Shown in pieces: positions 1,281-41,311 of a DNA stretch of 47,354 nucleotides. This DNA comes from Actinomycetes bacterium (GTDB lineage Bacteria > Actinomycetota > Acidimicrobiia > Acidimicrobiales > RAAP-2). The notes beneath the pieces were generated by a model, which had not been told where the DNA came from, did no database searches, and saw only the letters and a program-made list of their open reading frames with translations. Within the stretch, counting starts at the first letter, position 1; each line of letters begins with the position of its first letter. The position numbers were made by a program, and so were the translations under genes. The stretch lies in contig JAJZDI010000022.1 of assembly GCA_021806045.1 (NCBI GenBank), positions 1 to 47,354 of the forward strand, read 5' to 3'.

Positions 1281-4070
1281 TCACGCCGCGCCACCCACGA
1301 TCGGCTTGTTCAGCACGAGCGCCCCCGCTGATCCGTGGAAGGCGGCATCGCCGAAGGAGAACACCCCGCCGTCGGAGGCCACCAGCCAGTAGCCGCCCCC
1401 GTCAGGCGTGGCCGCTATGCCCACGATCGGCTTGTTCAGCACGAGCGCACCCGTCGACCCGTGGAAGGCGGCATCGCCGAAGGAGAACACCCCGCCGTCG
1501 GAGGCCACCAGCCAGTAGCCGCCCCCGTCGGGCGTGGCCGCTATGCCCACGATCGGCTTGTTCAGCACGAGCGCCCCCGTCGACCCGTGGAAGGCGGCAT
1601 CCCCGAAGGAGAACACCCCGCCGTCGGAGGCCACCAGCCAGTAGCCGCCCCCGTCAGGCGTGGCCGCCATGCCCACGATCGGCTTGTTCAGCACGAGCGC
1701 CCCCGTCGACCCGTGGAAGGCGGCATCGCCGAAGGAGAACACCCCGCCGTCGGAGGCCACCAGCCAGTAGCCACCCCCGTCGGGCGTGGCCGCCATGCCC
1801 ACGATCGGTGCGTTGAGGTGCAATGCACCCGTCGACCCGTGGAAGGCGGCATCGCCGAAGGAGAACACCCCGCCGTCGGAGGCCACCAGCCAGTAGCCGC
1901 CCCCGTCGGGCGTGGCCGCCATGCCGACGATCGGTGCGTTCAACGTGAGCGCACCTGTCGACCCGTGGAAGGCGGCATCGCCGAAGGAGAACACCCCGCC
2001 GTCGGAGGCCACCAGCCGGTAACCCTGGGGCAGGGTGAGACCCAGCTCCCGTGCCAGGAAGGCGGTGGTCGCCGGGAGCTCGGCCGGCGCGTAGGCGAAG
2101 GCGTGGGCGCACAGCGTGTTCGTGTCGAGCGTGGCCGGAACCCCGTCGACGGTGGCCCGGTCGACCACCTCCTCACCCTCGATGACCGGCACGATCTCGC
2201 AGGAGCCGGTGCCGGTGAAGTCGGTCGAGCCGGCGGCGAGGACGGCCGGCTCGGTTCCCGGTCCGGCCGGCGCCGGATCCTCGAGCAGCGCGGGCGACGC
2301 CTCCAGGTAGTCGGTCAGGCAGGCGTTGGACGACGGGTTCCACGTCGTGCTCTGCGGGTCGCTGCACCCCAGGTAGGTCGCCCACCCGGTGCTCGACACC
2401 TGGAAGCCCGGCTGCACCGCCTGGTACTGGTCGACCAGGGACAGCACGTCCGACGTGCCCGACCAGTCGGCCACCGCCGTCACCTTGGCGGCCGGGTCGA
2501 TCAGCGGGGCGGCGAACGCCGCAGACAGCGACAGGTTCCCTCCGGCCGATCCCCCGAACAGGGCGATCCGTGACGGGTCGACGCCGACCTGGGAGGCGTG
2601 GCTCCGCACCCATGCGACCGCATCCATGACGTCGTAGACGGGGTTGGGGAAGGTCGGCTGGGAAGCGGTGGCCAACGGGTAGTTGACGTTGAAGACGGCG
2701 AACCCGTCCTGGGCGAGGGCGACGGCCTGGGCCTGCAGGCCGCACTTGTCCCCCTTGACGTGGCCGCCGCCGTGGACCAGCACGACCGCCGGTACCGGCC
2801 CCGACGAGCTCTGCGGCCGGTAGACGTCGAGGAAGGTGGGATGGCCGAAGTCGCTGCCGTACACCTGGTTGGCCTGGTAGCTGACGCCGGCACCGGGAGC
2901 GGGAGGGCAGGTCGACGGTGTGGTGACGATCGAGCCGGTGGTGATGCGTGGGGGCAGGGGCGCAGGCGCGAGCGGCGGCGAGGGGGCGGCGAACTGGCCC
3001 TGGAGCCAGGCGATGGTGTTCTGCTCCATCGTGCCGGTTCCGGGAGGCGAGATGGGATCTCCGGCGTAGGCGAGTGCGTGGGCACAGGCCGACGTGGTCT
3101 CCACCGTGACGGGCACGCCGTGTTCCCGGTAGGACTGGGCGAGGGTGAGGGTGCTCTGGGGGTTGACCAGTTCGCAGCCGCTCACGTAGTCGGTGCTGGT
3201 GGCGAGCAGGGCCGGCGGGTCACCCCGGGCCACCCGGGCCAGCGGGTCGGCCGCCACCGCGGTGGCGAAGCACGAGGGGTCGTCGACGTTGCTGCAGCCG
3301 AGGAATTCGGTGCCGCCCTGGTACTCGGTGGGATTGGACACGGCGGTGAGGAAGGAGGCGGTGACCAGGTCGTACTGGCCGGACCACCCGACCACCGCGC
3401 TCACCCGGGCGGCCGGATCGCCGAGGACCGCGCCCTCGGCCGCGTCGACGGCGAGGGTGGCGCCGGCGGACTCGCCCCAGAGGGCCAGGCGGGCGGGATC
3501 GGTCCCCAGGTCGGCGGCGTACGTGCGCACCCATTGGACGGCCAGCTGCACGTCGGCGGGGGCCTCGACCGACGTGGCCGTGGTGCTGGTGGCCAGGGGG
3601 TAGTCGATGGAGAAGGCGGCTATCCCGGCCGCCGCCAGTGCGGGTGCCTCCGGGCTGAAGCTGCACTGGGCCCCGTGTACGAAGTCACCCCCGTGGACGA
3701 GGACGATGCCGGGCACGGGCCCGGTGACGTTGGTGGGGAGGTAGGCGGAGAGCACGAGCGTCTGGTGGAGGGCGTTGTCCGTGCCGTAGACGAGGTTGCC
3801 GGCGAAGCGCACGCCGGGCGTGGTCGAGGGGCAACAGCTCGGACCGTTGTTGCAGGTCCCCGGGGCCGGCAGCGCGGGTGCCGGACCGAGGGAGGGGGCG
3901 GGCAGCCCAGCGGCGTGCGCCACGTCCGGCGTGGTCGGGGTCGGGGCCGGGGTCGACAGCGCGGCTGCCCCGGCGCCACCGGCCAGCGCGAAGGGTGCGA
4001 GTGAAGCGAGCGCGATCACGGCTCCCGCGACCAGGTGCCGCACCACTCCTGCCGTCGCTGTTCTCCCCAT
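1281..4070 (-). CDS. Secreted protein: two tandem alpha/beta-hydrolase (esterase/lipase) domains plus six 42-aa repeats
   Basis: The product has 929 aa. The ATG at 4070 is preceded by GGAGGTGG, which fixes the start. Residues 1-36 form a signal peptide (basic start, hydrophobic Leu/Ala core, AxA). Two BD-FAE/HSL-like esterase domains follow. The first has an HGGD oxyanion motif at His126 and GESAG with nucleophile Ser201; the second has HGGG at His433 and GGSAGG with Ser508. Each also keeps a late Asp (STDY/STDF) and His ([16 protein letters not shown]), so both catalytic triads look intact. Residues 683-929 are six units of the type [18 protein letters not shown] infer an exported esterase with a beta-propeller-like C-terminus. 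The substrate is unknown. Confidence 0.88.
1284..2024 (-). repeat. Tandem 126-bp coding repeat, six units
   Basis: The 3' end of the esterase gene consists of six consecutive units of 126 bp (42 codons); the last one is slightly shorter. Units 3-6 are almost identical at the DNA level, and units 1-2 differ mainly in the LTLNA/LHLNA segment. The block gtggaaggcggcatc is present in every unit. The identity suggests recent duplication or gene conversion. The array is prone to slippage and to misassembly from short reads. Confidence 0.95.
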
Positions 4071-4120
4071 GGGACCACCTCCGTCTCGTTGCCCGGCCTG
4101 GACGTGCGTGGGCGATGTGC

Positions 4121-4147
4121 ACGGTACGACCCGGGAGCGAACGTTCG
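4121..4147 (-). promoter_or_regulatory. Putative promoter/operator of the secreted esterase
   Basis: On the minus strand a TACCGT hexamer (4126-4121, TANNNT type) lies ~50 nt upstream of the ATG. A perfect 10-bp palindrome CGAACGTTCG (4138-4147) sits 11 bp further upstream, where a -35 element and a repressor would bind. No good -35 match is present. The assignment is tentative. Confidence 0.35.
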
Positions 4148-4230
4148 GTGAGGTGCCTGTTAGGGAATTCGGTGGGGTGCGGACAGCGAACTGCGGGCAT
4201 CGCCGCCGGGAGCACCCGCTCCCGGCAGGT

Positions 4231-4256
4231 CTGTGCACACTGCAATACTGTGTACA
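4231..4256 (+). promoter_or_regulatory. Putative promoter region with two TGTGyACA sites, upstream of the CLC gene
   Basis: The 401-nt gap 4071-4471 contains no convincing gene. Within it are two copies of CTGTGyACA starting 17 nt apart (4231-4239 and 4248-4256). Their cores TGTGCACA and TGTGTACA are perfectly or nearly palindromic. A -10-like TACTGT (4246-4251) overlaps the second copy. A transcript starting here would have a ~210-nt leader before the CLC start at 4472. Confidence 0.35.
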
Positions 4257-4471
4257 TGCACGGAATATCCGAGGCCGCCGGGCCCGGCGGGTCCGACCAG
4301 CGCGCCCACTGCCACCACTGCCGCCCGGCTGGGCGCCTGCCGGCCCGGACGCCCTCTCCACCTGGTCCACCCGGCCGGGCTGCATGCCAGCCACAGGCGA
4401 GCGGCGCGACCGGGTCACGGCGCGCCCGCCTCTGCACCGTGCACGATGGGCGCGACCGATGAGGAGCAGCG

Positions 4472-6658
4472 ATGGCGATCGATGACGAGGGTGACGGGGC
4501 CGGCGCCGGTGCCGGGGGGACCCCGCCGGCGGTGCCCGTTGGAGGATCGGCAGGTCGGTGGCGCCGCCTGCGGTCGAGCCCACCGCAGTTCCGGCGGGTG
4601 GGGATCGCCCTGGGCGAGCGCATCAACGCCATGTCGTACCTGCCCAAGTGGCTGATCCTGGGCACGACCATCGGGATCGTCGCCGGGCTGGGCGCGGTGG
4701 TCTTCTATGAGGCGCTCTCCCTGGCGACGCACTTCTTCCTCTCGTACCTGGCCGGCTACCACGTGCCGACCCCGGCGGGCGAGGGCTACCACTTCGGCTC
4801 GGCCGGCTACTCCCGCCCGTGGGCCATCCCCCTGGTCGTCGTCCTCGGCGGCCTCCTCGCCGGGTTCATCGTCTTCACCTGGGCACCCGAGGCCGAGGGG
4901 CACGGGACCGACGCGGCCATCGACGCCGTCCACCACAACCCGCGCGGCATCCGCCTGCGGGCAGTCGTCGTGAAGATCGTCGCTTCGGCCCTCACCATCG
5001 GCTCCGGCGGCTCCGGCGGTCGGGAGGGGCCGACCGCCCAGATCAGCGCCGGGTTCGGATCGTTCATGGCCCGCCTCCTCGACCTGTCGCCGGAGGACGG
5101 CCGCATCGCCGTGTCCATCGGCATCGGCTCGGGCATCGGCGCCATCTTCTCGGCGCCCCTCGGCGGTGCCGTCCTGGCCGCCGACATCGTCTACCGGGAC
5201 GACTTCGAGTACGAGGCCCTCCTGCCCGGCGTCTTCGCCTCCGTCATCGCCTACGCCATCTTCGGTGCCTTCTTCGGCTACCACCCCCTCTTCGCCATCC
5301 ACGGCCTGCTCGTCTTCGACCACCCGGCACAGCTGCTGTGGTTCGCCCTCCTCGGCGTGATCGCCGGTGCTGTCGGCCTCCTCTATGCGGGCGCCTTCTA
5401 CGGCACCATCCGCCTCAACGCCAAGCTCCCCTTCACCCACAAGCTGCGCCCCGCCCTCGGGGCCCTGTTCGTGGGCCTCATGGCCCTCGGCGTGCCCCAG
5501 GTGCTCGGCACCGGGTACGGGTGGGTGCAGCGGAGCCTGGACAACCAGCTGGCCCACATCCCCCTCGCCGTCATCCTGCTGCTGCCCATCCTCCGGATCG
5601 TGGCCACCAGCCTGTCCATCGGCACCGGCGGCTCGGGTGGCGTGTTCGGCCCGGGCATGGTGATCGGCGCCTTCACCGGCTATGCCCTGTGGCGCCTCCT
5701 CGAGGGGGTCGCACCCGGGTTCGGCCACGACCCCGCGCCGTTCGTGGTGGTGGGGATGATGGCCGTCTTCGGCAGCATCTCCCGGGCACCGGTGGCGGTC
5801 ATGATCATGGTCGCCCAGATGACGGGCAACGTCTCGATGCTCGCTCCGGCCATGGTGGCGGTGTCCATCGCCTGGTTCATGGTCAGCCGCCTGGACAAGA
5901 GCATCTACGTGTCCCAGCTGAAGCGGCGGGCCGACTCCGCCTCCGGCCGGCTGCGCTTCGGCCTCCCCCAGGCGTCGTCACTGTCGGTGGCCGACGTGGC
6001 CACCCCACCGCGCCTCGTCCTCGGCGACCACGTCCTGGTGAGAGAGGCCCGGGAGGCACTGGACGTCGCCGGCGTCCCCGGTGCGCCGGTGACCGACGAG
6101 CAGGGAACCTACCTGGGGACGGTCGAGCACGACCCGCTGGCCATGTTGGAGAGCGAGGGGCGCGACAGCGAGCCGATCGGACCGGTGGTGGACGCGACCA
6201 CGCCGGCCATCGCCCAGGGGGAATCGCTCGACTCGGGCCTCGACGCGCTGCTCCACGCCGGAGGCGGATGGGTCCCCGTCACCGGCGGCGACCGGCGGGT
6301 GGTGGGCATCCTCGCCGTGGGCCAGCTCGTGCGCGGCTACCGCAGGGCGCTGGTCCGGGACCTGGACCGGGTGGCCGGCGTCCGATCCGGGTCGGTATCG
6401 GTCGAGGAGCGGATCGGACCGCACTCGGTCCTGGCCGGGCGGGCGATCCGCGACGTCGACTGGCCAGCCGGGTGCGTGGTGATGACGGTCCAGCACGACG
6501 AGCGGCTGACGTTCGCGGTGGGCGAGACGGAGCTGGCCGAAGGGGACGTGGTCAGCGCCCTCGTGCCCATCGGCGGCGTCGAGGGAGCCCGCCAGCTCAT
6601 CACGGGCGAGGAGTCAGGCGAGCGGGAGCCGGAGGAGGCCGACCAGCCGATGGTGTGA
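4472..6658 (+). CDS. CLC-family chloride channel with CBS pair and TrkA-C domain
   Basis: The product has 728 aa. GAGGAG lies just before the ATG. The membrane core (about residues 60-470) carries the CLC signatures GSGGSGG, GREGP with the gating Glu at about residue 185, and [12 protein letters not shown]. Two CBS-like segments follow (about residues 500-625), then a TrkA-C/RCK-C-like domain ([17 protein letters not shown]...[14 protein letters not shown]). By alignment to the FxY landmark, the position of the internal proton glutamate of CLC antiporters (E. coli E203) is Val240, as in CLC channels. I therefore infer a chloride channel rather than an antiporter, possibly ligand-gated through CBS/TrkA-C. 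The gene converges on the marR gene with an 11-nt gap. Confidence 0.93.
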
Positions 6659-33477: not shown

Positions 33478-34638
33478 ATGGTGTCGTTGTCGACCATGCA
33501 GTCGTCGTCCGTACCGCTGCCACCCGGGACGGCGTCCGCCGGCGACGGCGGCGAGGCGCCCGCCGACGACCTCGAACTGCTGGCGTCGCCCGGCATGGCG
33601 GGGTGGCTGGTGGACAACCAGGTGAGCCTGGTGTTCGGCACGCCGCCGATGAAGCTGTGGCTGGTCGGCGTGGACGGGACGGGAGAGCTTGCCGTCTTCG
33701 ACCGCTCGCTCGACAAGGTGATGGGGATCGCAGCCGAAGGTGCGGAGCGGCTGTGGGTGGCGACGCGCTTCGAGCTGTGGCGGTTCGAGAACGTCCTGGG
33801 CCCAGGCGAGCGGACGGCGGACGGCCATGACCGCCTCTACGTTCCCCGGCAGATGCTGCCCGTCGGGGACGTGAACGTCCATGACGTCGGCATCGACGCC
33901 ACCGGGCGAGACCTGTGGGTGAACACGCGCTTCGGCTGCCTGGCCTCCACCTCGGAGTCGGTCAGCTTCGTGCCCCGGTGGTGGCCGCCGTTCCTCGACG
34001 GTCCCCGCCAGGGCGATCGGTGCCACCTCAACGGCCTGGCCATGCGGGACGGCCGTGCCGCCTTTGTCACGTGCGTCAGCCGCTCGACCGAGGTGGACGG
34101 TTGGCGTGACGGCCGCCGTGACCAGGGGTGCGTCCTCGACGTCGCCACCGGCGAGGTGGTGGTCACCGGGCTGTCGATGCCCCACTCCCCACGATGGCAC
34201 AGGGACGACCTGTGGGTGGCCAACGCGGGCACGGGCGAGCTGGGCCGCGTCGACGTCGACGGGGGGCGGTTCGAGCCGGTGGCCTTCGCGCCCGGGTTCC
34301 TGCGGGGCCTCTCACTCGTCGGGGACCGATTCGCCGTGGTGGGATCGTCGAAGCCGAGGCGGGGCGACATCTACTCGGGACTGCCTCTCGACGACGTCCT
34401 CGAGGAGCGCGGACTGGTGCCGCACCTCGGGATCTTCGTCATCGACCTGGAGCGGGGTGAGCCGGTCGAATGGCTGCTCATCGAAGGTCCCGTGCGCGAG
34501 CTCTTCGACGTGTGTGCGCTCACAGGAGCCAGGCGGCCCGCCGCCATCGGCCTGGTCACCGACGAGATCCGTCGGGAGATCACCTTCGACGCGACGTGGC
34601 CGGTCGTTGCACCGTTGGCCGGAGCGGGACGTGGCTGA
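33478..34638 (+). CDS. TIGR03032/DUF4915-like predicted beta-propeller protein
   Basis: The product has 386 aa with no signal peptide. It matches the pattern I know for TIGR03032: GRLWVATRFELWRFEN-type blades, DVNVHDVGIDATGRDLWVNTRFGCLA, RWWPPFLDG, DRCHLNGLAMRDG, GLSMPHSPRWHRDDLWVANAGTGELG and FEPVAFAPGFLRGLSLVGD. The biochemical function of this family is unknown. GGGGAGG abuts the ATG at 33478, so the in-frame GTG at 33481 or the ATG at 33496 may be the real start. It is first in a plus-strand run and overlaps the next gene by 8 nt. Confidence 0.85.
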   Translation: MVSLSTMQSSSVPLPPGTASAGDGGEAPADDLELLASPGMAGWLVDNQVSLVFGTPPMKLWLVGVDGTGELAVFDRSLDKVMGIAAEGAERLWVATRFELWRFENVLGPGERTADGHDRLYVPRQMLPVGDVNVHDVGIDATGRDLWVNTRFGCLASTSESVSFVPRWWPPFLDGPRQGDRCHLNGLAMRDGRAAFVTCVSRSTEVDGWRDGRRDQGCVLDVATGEVVVTGLSMPHSPRWHRDDLWVANAGTGELGRVDVDGGRFEPVAFAPGFLRGLSLVGDRFAVVGSSKPRRGDIYSGLPLDDVLEERGLVPHLGIFVIDLERGEPVEWLLIEGPVRELFDVCALTGARRPAAIGLVTDEIRREITFDATWPVVAPLAGAGRG

Positions 34639-35755
34639 CCCGACCACCGGAACGGTCGTCGGACTGGTCAGCGCCGACCTGGACGTCACCGGTGCGCTGT
34701 GGGAGTGCCTTGCCGGCATCCCCGCCGGTCTCCTTGTGTCGGCCAACGGGCGCCTGTGGGTGCTGGCACCTGACGACGGGAGCGGCGCGCCGGGCGTCGC
34801 CGAGCGCGGCCTCGGGGGGGCCGGTCCGCTGTGCCGGACGGCCACCGGAGTGGTGGCGGCGAACCCGTGGCAGGTGTGGACGTTCGTGGACGCGGCCGCC
34901 GGATCGGCCGGGGGGACCGGCGGGCGCGACATCCTCCTCGTGCCGCAGGCAGCGGCGACCGTGGGGTCGATCGGGGTGTGCGACATCGCCGCCGACGACG
35001 AGGGTGCTCTCATGGTGGTGGGCCGCTTCGACTGCCTGGCCAGGTTGGACCGCCGGCACAGCTTCCGGCCCGTATGGATGCCGCCGTGGGTCACGGGGTT
35101 CGGCCACGGCGACCTGGATGCAGTGGGCGGGACGAGCAACCTGGGAGGGGTGGCCCTGGCTCCTGACGGCCGAGTTGTGGTCAGCGCTGCGGGCCGGTCG
35201 CCGGAGCCGAACGGCTGGCGTGAGGGCGTCGTCGGTGGCGGCGTGGTGGTCTCCTCCAGCGGGGACGTCCTGGCCACCGACCTCACCCTGCCCCGCCAGG
35301 TCCGGGCGGACGGCGACGGCTACCTGGTGGTCGAATCGGGGACGGGTCGGCTGCTCCGGCTGGGGACCGACGGGGCGGTCGACGTGGTGATCGAAGTGCC
35401 GGCCGTCCTGACCGGGCTCGACCTGCAGGGGAGGATCGCCGTCGTCGGATGGATGGCCCCGGGCGACGGCCAGGCCGGGCTCCCGGTGGCGGACGGCCCT
35501 GCGTCGCGTGCGCCCGCCCGCTGGCAGGGTACCGGCGTGGCGGTCGTCGACATCGTCGACGGCACCTTGGTGGCAAGTGCCCGCTTCCTCGGGAAGGTCG
35601 ACCCCGTCGTCGACGCCGTCCTGGTGGGTGGCGGCCGCCGCGTCGATGTGCTGGCACCTCGGGGCGACGCCGCCAATCGGACCGTCGTGGTCGGTGCGGT
35701 CGAACGCCTCCCCGATGGCGGGACGGTCCCCGCGACGATCGGGACAGCGGGCTAG
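34631..35755 (+). CDS. Divergent TIGR03032-like paralogue
   Basis: The product has 374 aa. It shares landmarks with the preceding protein in the same order: FDCLARLDRRHSFRPVWMPPWVTG against FGCLASTSESVSFVPRWWPPFLDG, a GWR (NGWREG/DGWRDG), and ESGTGRLLRLG against NAGTGELGRVD. The family's HLNG is SNLGG here and the SMPHSPRW motif is TLPRQVRA, so any active site may be lost. The GTG at 34631, with GGAG upstream, overlaps the previous stop. It is probably a tandem duplicate that has specialised; the function is unknown. Confidence 0.75.
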   Translation: MADPTTGTVVGLVSADLDVTGALWECLAGIPAGLLVSANGRLWVLAPDDGSGAPGVAERGLGGAGPLCRTATGVVAANPWQVWTFVDAAAGSAGGTGGRDILLVPQAAATVGSIGVCDIAADDEGALMVVGRFDCLARLDRRHSFRPVWMPPWVTGFGHGDLDAVGGTSNLGGVALAPDGRVVVSAAGRSPEPNGWREGVVGGGVVVSSSGDVLATDLTLPRQVRADGDGYLVVESGTGRLLRLGTDGAVDVVIEVPAVLTGLDLQGRIAVVGWMAPGDGQAGLPVADGPASRAPARWQGTGVAVVDIVDGTLVASARFLGKVDPVVDAVLVGGGRRVDVLAPRGDAANRTVVVGAVERLPDGGTVPATIGTAG

Positions 35756-35827
35756 CCTGTAGTGGAACATTCCCCGCCGGGGCGTGCACGGCCGTGCCGC
35801 CGGGGGGAGGACGGGGAGGTTGGGGCC

Positions 35828-38233
35828 ATGGGGACACAGGTTGGAGGGCGTTCGGTGCCTGGCGCGTCGGTCGTCCTCGTCACGGACGGGCCGCCCGACC
35901 ACCGGGCCATCGAGGCATCGTTGGCGCTCGAGGCAGCCGGGCTGTGCGTGGTCGCCGTCGAACTGCCCTCCCGCTCTGGCCGGCGGAACGCGTCGTCCGC
36001 CATCGTGACCTCCGTCGAGAGCATCCGGGCGACCGGATCGATCGCACTTGTTGCAGGGATCGGCAGGGCGGCCGGCCTGGCCGCCGGTGCGGCCAGCTCC
36101 GCGGGCGCCGACGGCCTGGTGGCGGTGGACGGGTCATTGTGGACGCTGTGGTGGCGGCTCCCCCCGTCGGGCATCCCGTCACTCCTGGTGTCGTCACCTG
36201 GACGTGGCCTGGCAGGTCGGACGGGGACCCGGGTGGCCGGCGTCATCGGGGGGGCATCGGTGCGGGTGGCGAGGGCCGGGATGCTGGCCGGTGAGCTGGC
36301 GGCACTGCGCCGCGCCGCGCTTGCCGGCTCGTGGCCGGGGGGAGCGCCCCTGGTCCGGCGAGTGGCCGCCCCGGTGGCCGTCGCCATGCTGGCCGCTCCC
36401 GCTGCTGCCATGTTCGCCGCCACCCCGGTGGGCGCCGCGCAGCGCTCCGGCGACGTGTCCGTCGGGCACCGTGGCCTTGCCGGCAGGTTCGGCGCGAGGG
36501 CCGTGTCCGTCGGCCACCGCACCGGCGGTGGGCGCGCACATTCCCACCTGGGCGGGAAGAAGGTGCGGCATCGTGCCGGTGATCTGGGGGCCGGGACGAC
36601 GTCCCCGCATCCGCACGCCACATCCTCCACCTCCACCACGTCGACGACCACGTCGACGACCGGCACGGCCACCGCGGTCGACGGGGCCGGCATGAAGTGG
36701 CGGTTCTTCGCCGACAACCACTCGAGCACGTCGTGGGCCAGCGGCGCTCTCGACAACGGTGCCACCTTCGGCGGCAAGGTCGTGGCGTCCACCCTCCACG
36801 GTGCGCTCGCCTCCCAGACCATGCATCAGAGCCCGTTCGACGGCTACGGCGCGCTGCAGCTGTCGGTCAACGGTGCGAAAGCGGTGACCTACGACCCGGT
36901 GGTGAAGGAGACGAAGGACGCGTCGTGCCCGCCGGCGAGCGGGACCCAGTTCGATCTGGCCGTCCAGACCATCTCCGGGGTCGCCGTCTCGCGCCAGCTC
37001 TTCGTCCCGGCCAACGACCACTTCGCCAGGGTCGACCAGACCCTGACGAACACGACGTCGGCACCGGTGACGGTGGTGCTCTCGAACCCGTACAACAATC
37101 TGCGCTCGAACATCTCCCCGATCGTCTCGACGTCCACAGGAGCGGCGCCGTCGACGGCCGATCTGTGGATCGGCACCTTCAACGGCTTCGGCACCGGTAC
37201 GACCAGCACCCAGGCTCGCGTCGGCAACGTCGTCCAGGGTCCCAGGGCCCCGGTGCCCCTTGCCTCTCTGTCGATGCCAGGACCCCGCGGAGCGCCCGAG
37301 TGGACGTACTCGATAACGCTGGCCCCCGGCCAGACGAGGATCGTCGCCAATTACGTGGTAGCCGATCCGACCCTGGCCCAGCGCAACTTCGACTCCTTCC
37401 GCCTCGCCCAGACGGGGACGAACGCACTCGAGTGCCTGTCGCCGGCCCAGATCGGCGAGCTGGCCAACTTCGTCCCCGGCGGCCCCGGCTACCGCATGGT
37501 CGCAGCCGATGGCGGGGTGTTCACCTACGGTGCCGCCTCCTACGCCGGCTCGACGGGCGCCATCCACCTGAACGAGCCGATCGTCGGGTCGGCCGCCACC
37601 CCCACCGGCAACGGCTACTGGTTGGTGGCCGCCGACGGCGGCGTGTTCTCCTTCGGCGACGCGCAATTTCACGGGACGACCAGTGGCCACCATCTCAACA
37701 AGCCCGTGGTGGGCATGGCCGCCACCCCCGACGGCAAGGGCTACTGGCTCGTTGCCGCCGACGGCGGCGTGTTCGCTTTCGGTGACGCCACCTTCCACGG
37801 GTCGACCGGGGCGAAGCCGCCGACAGCGCCCGTGGTGGGCATGGCCGCCACCCCCGACGGCAAGGGCTACTGGCTGGTGACCTCCGCCGGTCAGGTCATC
37901 CCCTTCGGCGACGCCGCGAGCTACGGGTCGGTGGCCGGCGCGCTCAACGCTCCGATCGTGGGCATGGCTGCCACCCCCGACGGCAAGGGGTACTGGCTCG
38001 CTGCCGCCGACGGCGGCGTGTTCGCTTTCGGTGACGCCACCTTCCGCGGGTCGGCCGGCGCGCTCCATCTCAACAAGCCGATCGTGGGCATCGCCGCCTC
38101 GCCGTCAGGCCTCGGCTACCGGTTGGTCGCTTCCGACGGCGGCGTCTTCGACTACGGCGACGCCGGCTTCTACGGGTCAGCGGGCGGCCAGCACCTGAAC
38201 CAGCCGATCGTGGGCATCGCCAACATCGGCTGA
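35828..38233 (+). CDS. Membrane-anchored protein: degenerate hydrolase-like domain, beta domain, six C-terminal repeats
   Basis: The product has 801 aa; GGGAGG precedes the ATG at 35828. Residues 12-125 look like an alpha/beta-hydrolase or dienelactone-hydrolase core (SVVLVTDG, AGLCVVAVELP, ALVAGIGRAAG, ADGLVAVDG, IPSLLVSSPG), but the nucleophile elbow GxSxG is GIGRA (77-81), so catalysis is unlikely. A hydrophobic helix at ~179-203 and a Ser/Thr-rich linker (~255-285) follow. Residues ~289-550 form a beta-rich domain of unknown family, and 554-801 are six GYWLVAADGGVF-type repeats. The likely topology is pseudo-hydrolase inside and beta domain plus repeats outside. It probably belongs to the operon of the two preceding genes (72-nt gap). 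Confidence 0.8.
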   Translation: MGTQVGGRSVPGASVVLVTDGPPDHRAIEASLALEAAGLCVVAVELPSRSGRRNASSAIVTSVESIRATGSIALVAGIGRAAGLAAGAASSAGADGLVAVDGSLWTLWWRLPPSGIPSLLVSSPGRGLAGRTGTRVAGVIGGASVRVARAGMLAGELAALRRAALAGSWPGGAPLVRRVAAPVAVAMLAAPAAAMFAATPVGAAQRSGDVSVGHRGLAGRFGARAVSVGHRTGGGRAHSHLGGKKVRHRAGDLGAGTTSPHPHATSSTSTTSTTTSTTGTATAVDGAGMKWRFFADNHSSTSWASGALDNGATFGGKVVASTLHGALASQTMHQSPFDGYGALQLSVNGAKAVTYDPVVKETKDASCPPASGTQFDLAVQTISGVAVSRQLFVPANDHFARVDQTLTNTTSAPVTVVLSNPYNNLRSNISPIVSTSTGAAPSTADLWIGTFNGFGTGTTSTQARVGNVVQGPRAPVPLASLSMPGPRGAPEWTYSITLAPGQTRIVANYVVADPTLAQRNFDSFRLAQTGTNALECLSPAQIGELANFVPGGPGYRMVAADGGVFTYGAASYAGSTGAIHLNEPIVGSAATPTGNGYWLVAADGGVFSFGDAQFHGTTSGHHLNKPVVGMAATPDGKGYWLVAADGGVFAFGDATFHGSTGAKPPTAPVVGMAATPDGKGYWLVTSAGQVIPFGDAASYGSVAGALNAPIVGMAATPDGKGYWLAAADGGVFAFGDATFRGSAGALHLNKPIVGIAASPSGLGYRLVASDGGVFDYGDAGFYGSAGGQHLNQPIVGIANIG
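37487..38230 (+). repeat. Six diverged GYWLVAADGG repeat units (coding)
   Basis: There are six units of ~41-44 codons, with the conserved frame [42 protein letters not shown]. Unit 4 is the most diverged (TSAGQVIPFGDAASYGS). Unlike the esterase array at 1284-2024, the DNA of these units is clearly diverged, so this is an older array. Confidence 0.93.
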
Positions 38234-40540: not shown

Positions 40541-41311
40541 TCAGCGCCGGCCCTGCATGCCGGACGTGATGGCCAGGACCCGATCGGCCAGCTCCGGACG
40601 GCAGACCACGAGGTCGGGGAGCCACGGGTCGCGTGCGCCGTAGCGGAGGGGCCGGCCGTCGAGCCGCGACGCATGGAGGCCGGCGGCCAGAGCGACGGCG
40701 ACGGGGGCGGCGGAGTCCCACTCGTACTGACCACCGGCGTGCACGTAGAGGTCGGCGTCCCCACGCACCACGGCGGCCACCTTGGCGCCGGCTGAGCCCA
40801 TGGGCACGACGGTGGCCCCGAGCTCGTGGGCGATGCGACGGATGATCATCGGCGGGTGGGAGCGGCTGACGGTCAGGCGGGGTGGGCCTGGTGCCGGTCC
40901 GGGCGGGACGGCCGTCGCGGTGTCGAGGACTTCCCCCAGGGCGGGGACGGCGACAGCTCCCGCCACCGGGACCCCGCCGTCGACAAGGGCGACGTGGACG
41001 GCCCACTCGGCGGAGCCGGGGACTTCGAATTCGTGGGTGCCGTCGAGAGGGTCGACGATCCACAGCCGGCCGTCTCCCCAGGCGTCGACGGCACCTTCCT
41101 CGGACCGGACGGCGTCGTCGGGGAACGCCTCGGTGATCATGCCGAGGATGAGCTCGTGTGCCAGGCGGTCGCCGGTCGAGCCGATCCACCAGTGCCCCCG
41201 CGCCCCCGCGTCGGATCGGAGGTCGAGGAGCGCCCGGCCGGCGGCCGCCGCCACCGCGGCGGCGAACCGGTGCTCGGGGGCCTCGGGCGGGGCGAGCGTC
41301 ACCGCACGCAC
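40541..41311 (-). CDS. Inositol monophosphatase/CysQ-type phosphatase
   Basis: The product has 256 aa. The Mg-dependent phosphatase motifs are all present: RSEEG, WIVDPLDGTHEFEVPG (WxxDPxDGTxxF) and GGQYEWDSAAPVAV (WDxAAP). The truncated, acidic style resembles CysQ (3'-phosphoadenosine 5'-phosphate phosphatase) more than true inositol phosphatases, but the substrate is not certain. The GTG at 41311 is the most upstream start, and another GTG three codons later is possible. It converges on the histidine kinase gene. Confidence 0.9.
   Translation of the reverse strand: MRAVTLAPPEAPEHRFAAAVAAAAGRALLDLRSDAGARGHWWIGSTGDRLAHELILGMITEAFPDDAVRSEEGAVDAWGDGRLWIVDPLDGTHEFEVPGSAEWAVHVALVDGGVPVAGAVAVPALGEVLDTATAVPPGPAPGPPRLTVSRSHPPMIIRRIAHELGATVVPMGSAGAKVAAVVRGDADLYVHAGGQYEWDSAAPVAVALAAGLHASRLDGRPLRYGARDPWLPDLVVCRPELADRVLAITSGMQGRR

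Follow-up and report, generated by a model that had tools for sequence, protein, structure and literature searches.

Introduction

What could three adjacent genes be doing together when their products look like propeller or beta-rich proteins and the set matches no described system? The question is raised by contig JAJZDI010000022.1 of an Actinomycetes bacterium of the order Acidimicrobiales (GenBank assembly GCA_021806045.1), whose 47,354 nucleotides (nt) are here called the window. Its forward strand carries gene A (positions 33478 to 34638; 386 amino acids), a TIGR03032/DUF4915 protein, gene B (34631 to 35755; GTG start, 374 amino acids), a diverged tandem paralogue of A, and gene C (35828 to 38233; 801 amino acids), encoding a modular and probably exported surface protein. 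The 8-nt overlap of A and B (34631 to 34638), in which the start of B lies over the TGA of A, and the 72-nt gap from B to C were already given in a preliminary description of the locus, and its coordinates were confirmed. A-B-C looks like an undescribed set that recurs in distantly related bacteria, and the reading tentatively favoured below is that A and B mature or escort C before its export.

Recurrence of the three-gene set

The A-B-C set was found in eight genomes: the window, its congener G021, three other genomes of its class (G006, G299 and G445) and, beyond the class sample, Nocardioides furvisabuli (L094) and two metagenome-assembled genomes (MAGs), one of Desulfocapsa and one of Acidimicrobiia (L095 and L096). 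A set that recurs in eight genomes is more than chance, and A-B-C is therefore a real module. Conservation of the neighbourhood in relatives, whose absence the preliminary description had named as fatal to its interpretation, is thus borne out. The three genes are codirectional in the window, G021, L094, L095 and L096, and C is divergent from A-B in G006, G299 and G445 (3/8), so that a single transcript is not general to the module.

The set is rare. The A-B pair was found in G000, G021 and G006 among 150 genomes of the window's bacterial family, and in 4/395 genomes of its class (G000, G006, G299 and G445), in searches that scored few candidates per genome and could have missed some. C-like genes adjoin the A-B pairs of G006, G299 and G445. 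The middle domain of C was present in 5/395 class genomes, including all four in which A and B are adjacent; G221, the remaining one, gave a weak partial match (E 8e-8), and its single TIGR03032 gene lies on another contig. Apart from G221, eight places where the match to protein C extended beyond the repeats on their upstream side were inspected, and none had the middle domain. A phylum sample of 296 genomes yielded the middle domain of the window plus two weak matches.

In G021 the set is split over two contigs, one with A-B and one with C, which share 127 bases within a transposase-like gene recognised by eye, and for this reason an insertion element most likely separates B from C there. 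In its flanks, both before A and after C, this congener has the same genes as the window. Several occurrences of a short repeat lie close to the ends of the probable insertion element in the sister species (L022, 18960 to 19239; L084, 1 to 1300).

From a named sequence collection 80 of at least 581 confirmed TIGR03032 relatives were retained. The three best loci, those of N. furvisabuli (60%), the Desulfocapsa MAG (54%) and the Acidimicrobiia MAG (56%), all have A-B-C. At E 1e-3, C was detected in none of the other 77, several of whose contigs end near the gene; one of them, L150, has a second, partial TIGR03032 stretch.

The literature search, to which subscription journals were mostly inaccessible, returned no paper with TIGR03032, DUF4915 or CHP03032. 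As the preliminary description had stated, no described system with this set was found in the literature searched.

Gene A, a predicted propeller with invariant polar residues

Protein A is a full member of its family by both models, with 361.9 bits against TIGR03032 (NCBI curated cut-off 251.5) and 347.6 bits against DUF4915 (PF16261; Pfam cut-off 35). Its hydropathy revealed no hydrophobic N-terminus. A model built from 45 sequences is a six-bladed beta-propeller (predicted local distance difference test, pLDDT, 87.9; predicted template modelling score 0.86), in agreement with the fold first proposed, and A is predicted to be a six-bladed propeller of the YWTD type. When the model was compared with solved structures by VIA-align, YWTD six-bladed propellers of the low-density lipoprotein receptor type ranked first, with nidogen (1npe) at Z 23.5 and a root-mean-square deviation of 2.9 over 238 residues, and megalin and LRP6 also among the best fold matches, yet the top rows have 10-14% identity. 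Foldseek also listed an S-layer YVTN propeller, luciferin-regenerating enzyme and virginiamycin B lyase. Searched by sequence, the A profile found nothing meaningful in the PDB (best E 0.26). Unlike A, which lacks a hydrophobic N-terminus, the matched YWTD propellers are extracellular animal domains.

The alignment of A (A8) comprises 45 sequences, from the window and 44 of the 80 loci. It leaves out L098, L106, L148, L162 and L171, which contain stop codons, and the second TIGR03032 row of L095; 30 loci were unselected when the sequences were listed, and the remaining absent loci were simply unlisted. Among the polar residues invariant across the 45 sequences are D118, H135, D180, H183, N185, R210, R213, H236, R239, R276 and E341. 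All eight A proteins of the A-B-C loci keep D118, H135, D180, H183, N185, W209, R210, R213, S233-R239, R276 and E341. In the model, H135, H183/N185, H236/R239, R276 and E341 mark the beginning of the first strand, or a point shortly ahead of it, in one blade after another. This is where a propeller usually has its site, and the polar residues of A would cluster into one conserved site. The earlier statement that none of the three proteins has an obvious active site does not fit A, with its invariant polar residues at several blade starts.

Gene B, a diverged paralogue of A

Protein B scores 119.4 bits against DUF4915, above the Pfam cut-off of 35, and 139.4 bits against TIGR03032, below the NCBI cut-off of 251.5; it thus belongs to the family by Pfam's cut-off only, and the label TIGR03032-like given to it at the outset is right. 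Its family membership suggests that B, too, is a propeller. A 61-row tree has a branch (support 89/97) that sets the eight A proteins apart; the eight B proteins are likewise set apart, but weakly (78/71), and several of them drew long-branch warnings. The tandem A-B with C is a side branch of the TIGR03032 family tree.

Most of the invariant polar residues of A have been lost from B in most loci, to varying degrees: among the eight B proteins N185 is kept in one, H135 in two, and H183 and H236 in three each. With B starts chosen by the analyst, A and B overlap in seven of the eight loci, by 8 nt in the window and G021 and by 4 nt in G006, G299, G445, L094 and L096; in L095 they are 65 nt apart.

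Domain structure of protein C

The N-terminal domain of C (about residues 1-170; 35828 to 36337) is present in five of the eight C proteins, those of the window, G021, G006, G299 and L096. The L096 copy matches dienelactone hydrolase 2o2g (E 7e-7), and the alignment places its GAGSS on the GASTG of 2o2g, which we take to be the nucleophile elbow, with the serine replaced. The window domain is 29% identical to the L096 copy (E 0.002), and its elbow position is occupied by GIGRA in the multiple alignment or by GRAAG in the pairwise one, two residues apart and neither with a serine. The GxSxG-type nucleophile elbow that marks an active alpha/beta hydrolase is therefore lacking. On its own the window domain had no Pfam match and no meaningful PDB match, its profile found insignificant PDB matches only (best E 0.11, a dehydrogenase), and hhalign detected no match between the five-row profile of the domain and dienelactone hydrolases of relatives, nor between the domain and A. 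A hydrolase ancestry with a lost nucleophile, in line with the hydrolase-like domain (GIGRA instead of GxSxG) of the preliminary description, is tentatively supported through one homologue; since neither the window copy nor the five-row profile matches a hydrolase, the L096 protein is the single bridge. Unlike 2o2g, the domain is followed in the same polypeptide by a likely signal peptide.

This peptide is a hydrophobic stretch recognised by eye at about residues 175-205 (36350 to 36442), with a basic start and an Ala-rich end. In L094 and L095 protein C begins near it, so that it is likely a signal peptide after an N-terminal extension and not the permanent membrane anchor that it was first taken for. 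C would accordingly be an exported protein, probably displayed on the surface.

Two Gly-Asp motifs follow, RSGD (residues 206-209; 36443 to 36454) and RAGD (residues 249-252; 36572 to 36583), and then a Ser/Thr-rich linker seen in the sequence (about residues 262-282; 36611 to 36673). Each of the eight C proteins has two GD in the linker between signal peptide and beta domain. The pattern [VIRH][AQGS]GD occurs 14 times in the eight linkers, against a shuffle mean of 0.38, and 0/5000 shuffles were as high; the pattern and the linker bounds were picked after inspection of the sequences, and the count is treated as a lead only. Three remote middle-domain relatives were inspected by eye: no Gly-Asp motif precedes the domain in L178, L180 has one near the signal, and L179 is cut off.

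The middle beta domain (residues 283-552; 36674 to 37483) is common to all eight C proteins. Its profile found no PDB match up to E 1, and it had no match to A in hhalign. The six repeats of about 41 residues that follow (37484 to 38224), delimited by eye, could form a small propeller and have a weak match to the S-layer YVTN propeller 1l0q (E 6e-4). Protein C is matched in 77/150 genomes of the bacterial family, and most of the matches listed fall in the repeats, which are a common module in this family. The six repeats first described are thus there, but they are not specific to the locus.

The C-terminal ends vary, with six repeats in the window and G021, RTX repeats in L094 and L096, Calx-beta with LPTTG in G299, LPATG in G445, fibronectin III with LAATG in G006, and neither in L095. 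C of the window has no LPXTG-like sorting tail by which a sortase would anchor it; sorting-like tails were seen by eye in G299, G445 and G006, that of G299 with 18.5 bits in Pfam, below the cut-off of 20. The tails of these three homologues would argue for release of C from its N-terminus. The structure model of C, built from four sequences, has a mean pLDDT of 37.2 and was too poor for a fold search, which leaves the domains of C unassigned by fold.

Neighbourhoods of the wider TIGR03032 family

The 80 retained loci carry record names from seven bacterial phyla. In 46/80 of them, A-B-C loci included, a frame of one large, loosely linked surface-type cluster lies within 6 kb of the TIGR03032 gene, mostly less than 400 bases away. 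Neighbours were counted in 77 loci after removal of L094, L095 and L096, a few of whose genes remain in the control. The nearest upstream gene is of FG-GAP type in 13/72, RTX in 10/72 and GT41 in 7/72; the nearest downstream gene is of FG-GAP type in 18/75, RTX in 13/75, Big_9 in 9/75, cadherin-like in 8/75 and an APS kinase in 3/75. The control comprised 100 genes out of 235 at distances above 6 kb, and none of these families was among the 25 listed for it, which sets each at no more than 1/100. TIGR03032 genes are thus associated with secreted, often RTX or FG-GAP proteins and, in fewer cases, with protein modification in the cytosol. One locus of the window's class (L089, 9148 to 12066) encodes Asp/Asn beta-hydroxylase, sulfotransferase and DUF4915 domains within a single polypeptide.

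Several further arrangements were seen. L087, L090 and L093 resemble L089 by eye, and beta-helix proteins are found directly downstream in L089 and L090; in L091 they lie upstream, at a distance of some kilobases. Tetratricopeptide repeat (TPR) proteins with GT41, of the protein O-GlcNAc transferase type, stand directly beside TIGR03032 in L110 (751 to 3912), L117 (3024 to 5240) and L161 (1054 to 3420). Cyanobacterial, planctomycete and proteobacterial TIGR03032 genes often adjoin FG-GAP (integrin-alpha-like) genes, some of them RTX-bearing, as in L116 (11066 to 16111).

Possible roles of the A-B-C set

We tentatively favour the reading, with slightly under an even chance of being right, that A-B-C is one functional module in which a cytosolic A-B pair matures or escorts C before export. 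In this scheme A would be a six-bladed propeller of the cytosol whose polar site is conserved, and B its tandem paralogue with the site mostly lost, probably made in step with A by way of the overlapping genes. The two would form a complex that acts on C inside the cell, before or during export, A chemically modifying or tightly binding the C precursor and B holding or presenting it; C would then leave by its signal peptide and be displayed on the surface. A complex of A and B, C as its client, and maturation by modification or escort rather than signalling are what the sequences suggest. In favour of this reading stand the repeated co-occurrence of the three genes, the A-B overlap in seven of eight loci, the predicted fold of A, the polar residues kept in A and mostly lost in B, and the secreted and, more rarely, protein-modifying neighbours or fusion partners of the wider family.

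A likeness of working is offered by GtfA/GtfB, a two-protein complex acting on one exported serine-rich repeat adhesin, GtfA being the glycosyltransferase and GtfB the acceptor chaperone (PMC6973325). The likeness would lie in two proteins serving one exported client, with C as the client of A-B; the systems are unrelated, and no membership is implied. DUF4915 is the only domain above cut-off in A and B, neither of which has a glycosyltransferase domain or DUF1975, and in contrast to serine-rich adhesins C has only a short Ser/Thr linker.

Several observations weigh against maturation or escort of C. The neighbours of A-B-C included no glycosyltransferase, hydroxylase or sulfotransferase (16 proteins of the window flanks by Pfam, the other loci by eye), so that any chemistry would be A's own, and the best fold matches of A are protein-binding YWTD propellers, not enzymes. 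B of L095 retains nearly all A-type polar residues. The N-terminal domain is missing from three of the eight C proteins, although A and B are present in their loci, and so cannot be an obligatory contact. The middle domain has two remote, partial relatives in genomes with no TIGR03032 match. In the neighbour counts the control genes were shorter (median 289 amino acids against 489 and 442), and the genes next to TIGR03032 were defined by a simple open-frame criterion, which could admit false frames in GC-rich DNA.

Signalling was the reading first offered for this locus: A and B as cytoplasmic sensors or binding partners that relay a signal to C, or receive one from it, by way of the N-terminal domain of C. 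In the window C is followed on the same strand by a response regulator and a histidine kinase, and the same two genes follow C in G021, but neither was found at E 1e-8 in the available flanks of the other six A-B-C loci. A's nearest solved folds, being mostly protein-binding propellers, would suit a sensor, as would the long N-terminal domain ahead of the hydrophobic stretch; the loss of that domain from three C proteins whose loci retain A and B, and the sorting-like tails that suggest release of C from its N-terminus, do not. With family-wide neighbours pointing more to the production of secreted proteins, we regard signalling as quite unlikely. What stands of the preliminary interpretation is the predicted propeller A, a B of the same family, a probably exported C with an inactive hydrolase-like N-terminal domain, and a conserved neighbourhood; its view that none of the three proteins has an obvious active site does not.

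A could instead be an enzyme acting on a small molecule for the cell envelope, with B as its regulator and C merely co-regulated. The invariant polar residues at inner-strand starts of several modelled blades, and the luciferin-regenerating enzyme and virginiamycin B lyase listed by Foldseek, fit such a role, which would leave unexplained both the co-occurrence with one particular surface domain and the secreted neighbours of the wider family; we consider it unlikely. That the genes move together by transfer or drift without a shared function is more improbable still. The set is indeed rare and scattered, and its occurrence in the Desulfocapsa MAG may reflect transfer or misbinning, but it has survived both reorientation of its genes and the insertion that separates B from C, and the A copies group in the tree.

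Beyond maturation or escort of C, a broader idea can be put forward, and we hold it to be quite unlikely: TIGR03032 propellers may be the reading or catalytic heads of an undescribed modification machinery for Asp-rich exported adhesins, recognising the doubled Gly-Asp motif in the linker of C and the Gly-Asp motifs in the GD-rich FG-GAP and RTX repeats, with A-B-C as its smallest, client-dedicated form. If this were so, the fusion with Asp/Asn beta-hydroxylase and sulfotransferase would hint at the chemistry of the machinery. The link to secreted adhesin-like proteins and protein-modifying enzymes makes TIGR03032 a testable family, and A-B-C, in which two partners share one presumed client, offers a compact system for such tests.

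Flanks and transcription signals of the locus

No sigma-70-like promoter was predicted at the locus, and the three terminator-like sites all lie within the repeats of C, so that nothing was learned from them about transcripts. A flavin-monooxygenase-like gene lies upstream of A on the opposite strand of the window.

An inositol monophosphatase family gene is found at 40541 to 41311 of the window, with relatives in G021 and G299 and no match in the other five loci; it is presumably CysQ-like and was not used as evidence for A-B-C. CysD/CysN-like genes, recognised by eye and likewise unused as evidence, follow C in G299, and sulfate-activation-type genes (CysD/CysN-like by eye) lie near the module in L086 (9305 to 12129 and 14296 to 15093).

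Elsewhere in the window, the reverse-strand gene at 1281 to 4583 joins a BD-FAE/alpha-beta hydrolase domain to the repeats that C also has. In G445, repeat-rich proteins that by eye look secreted are encoded on both sides of the module (L085, 331 to 1926 and 6947 to 8590).

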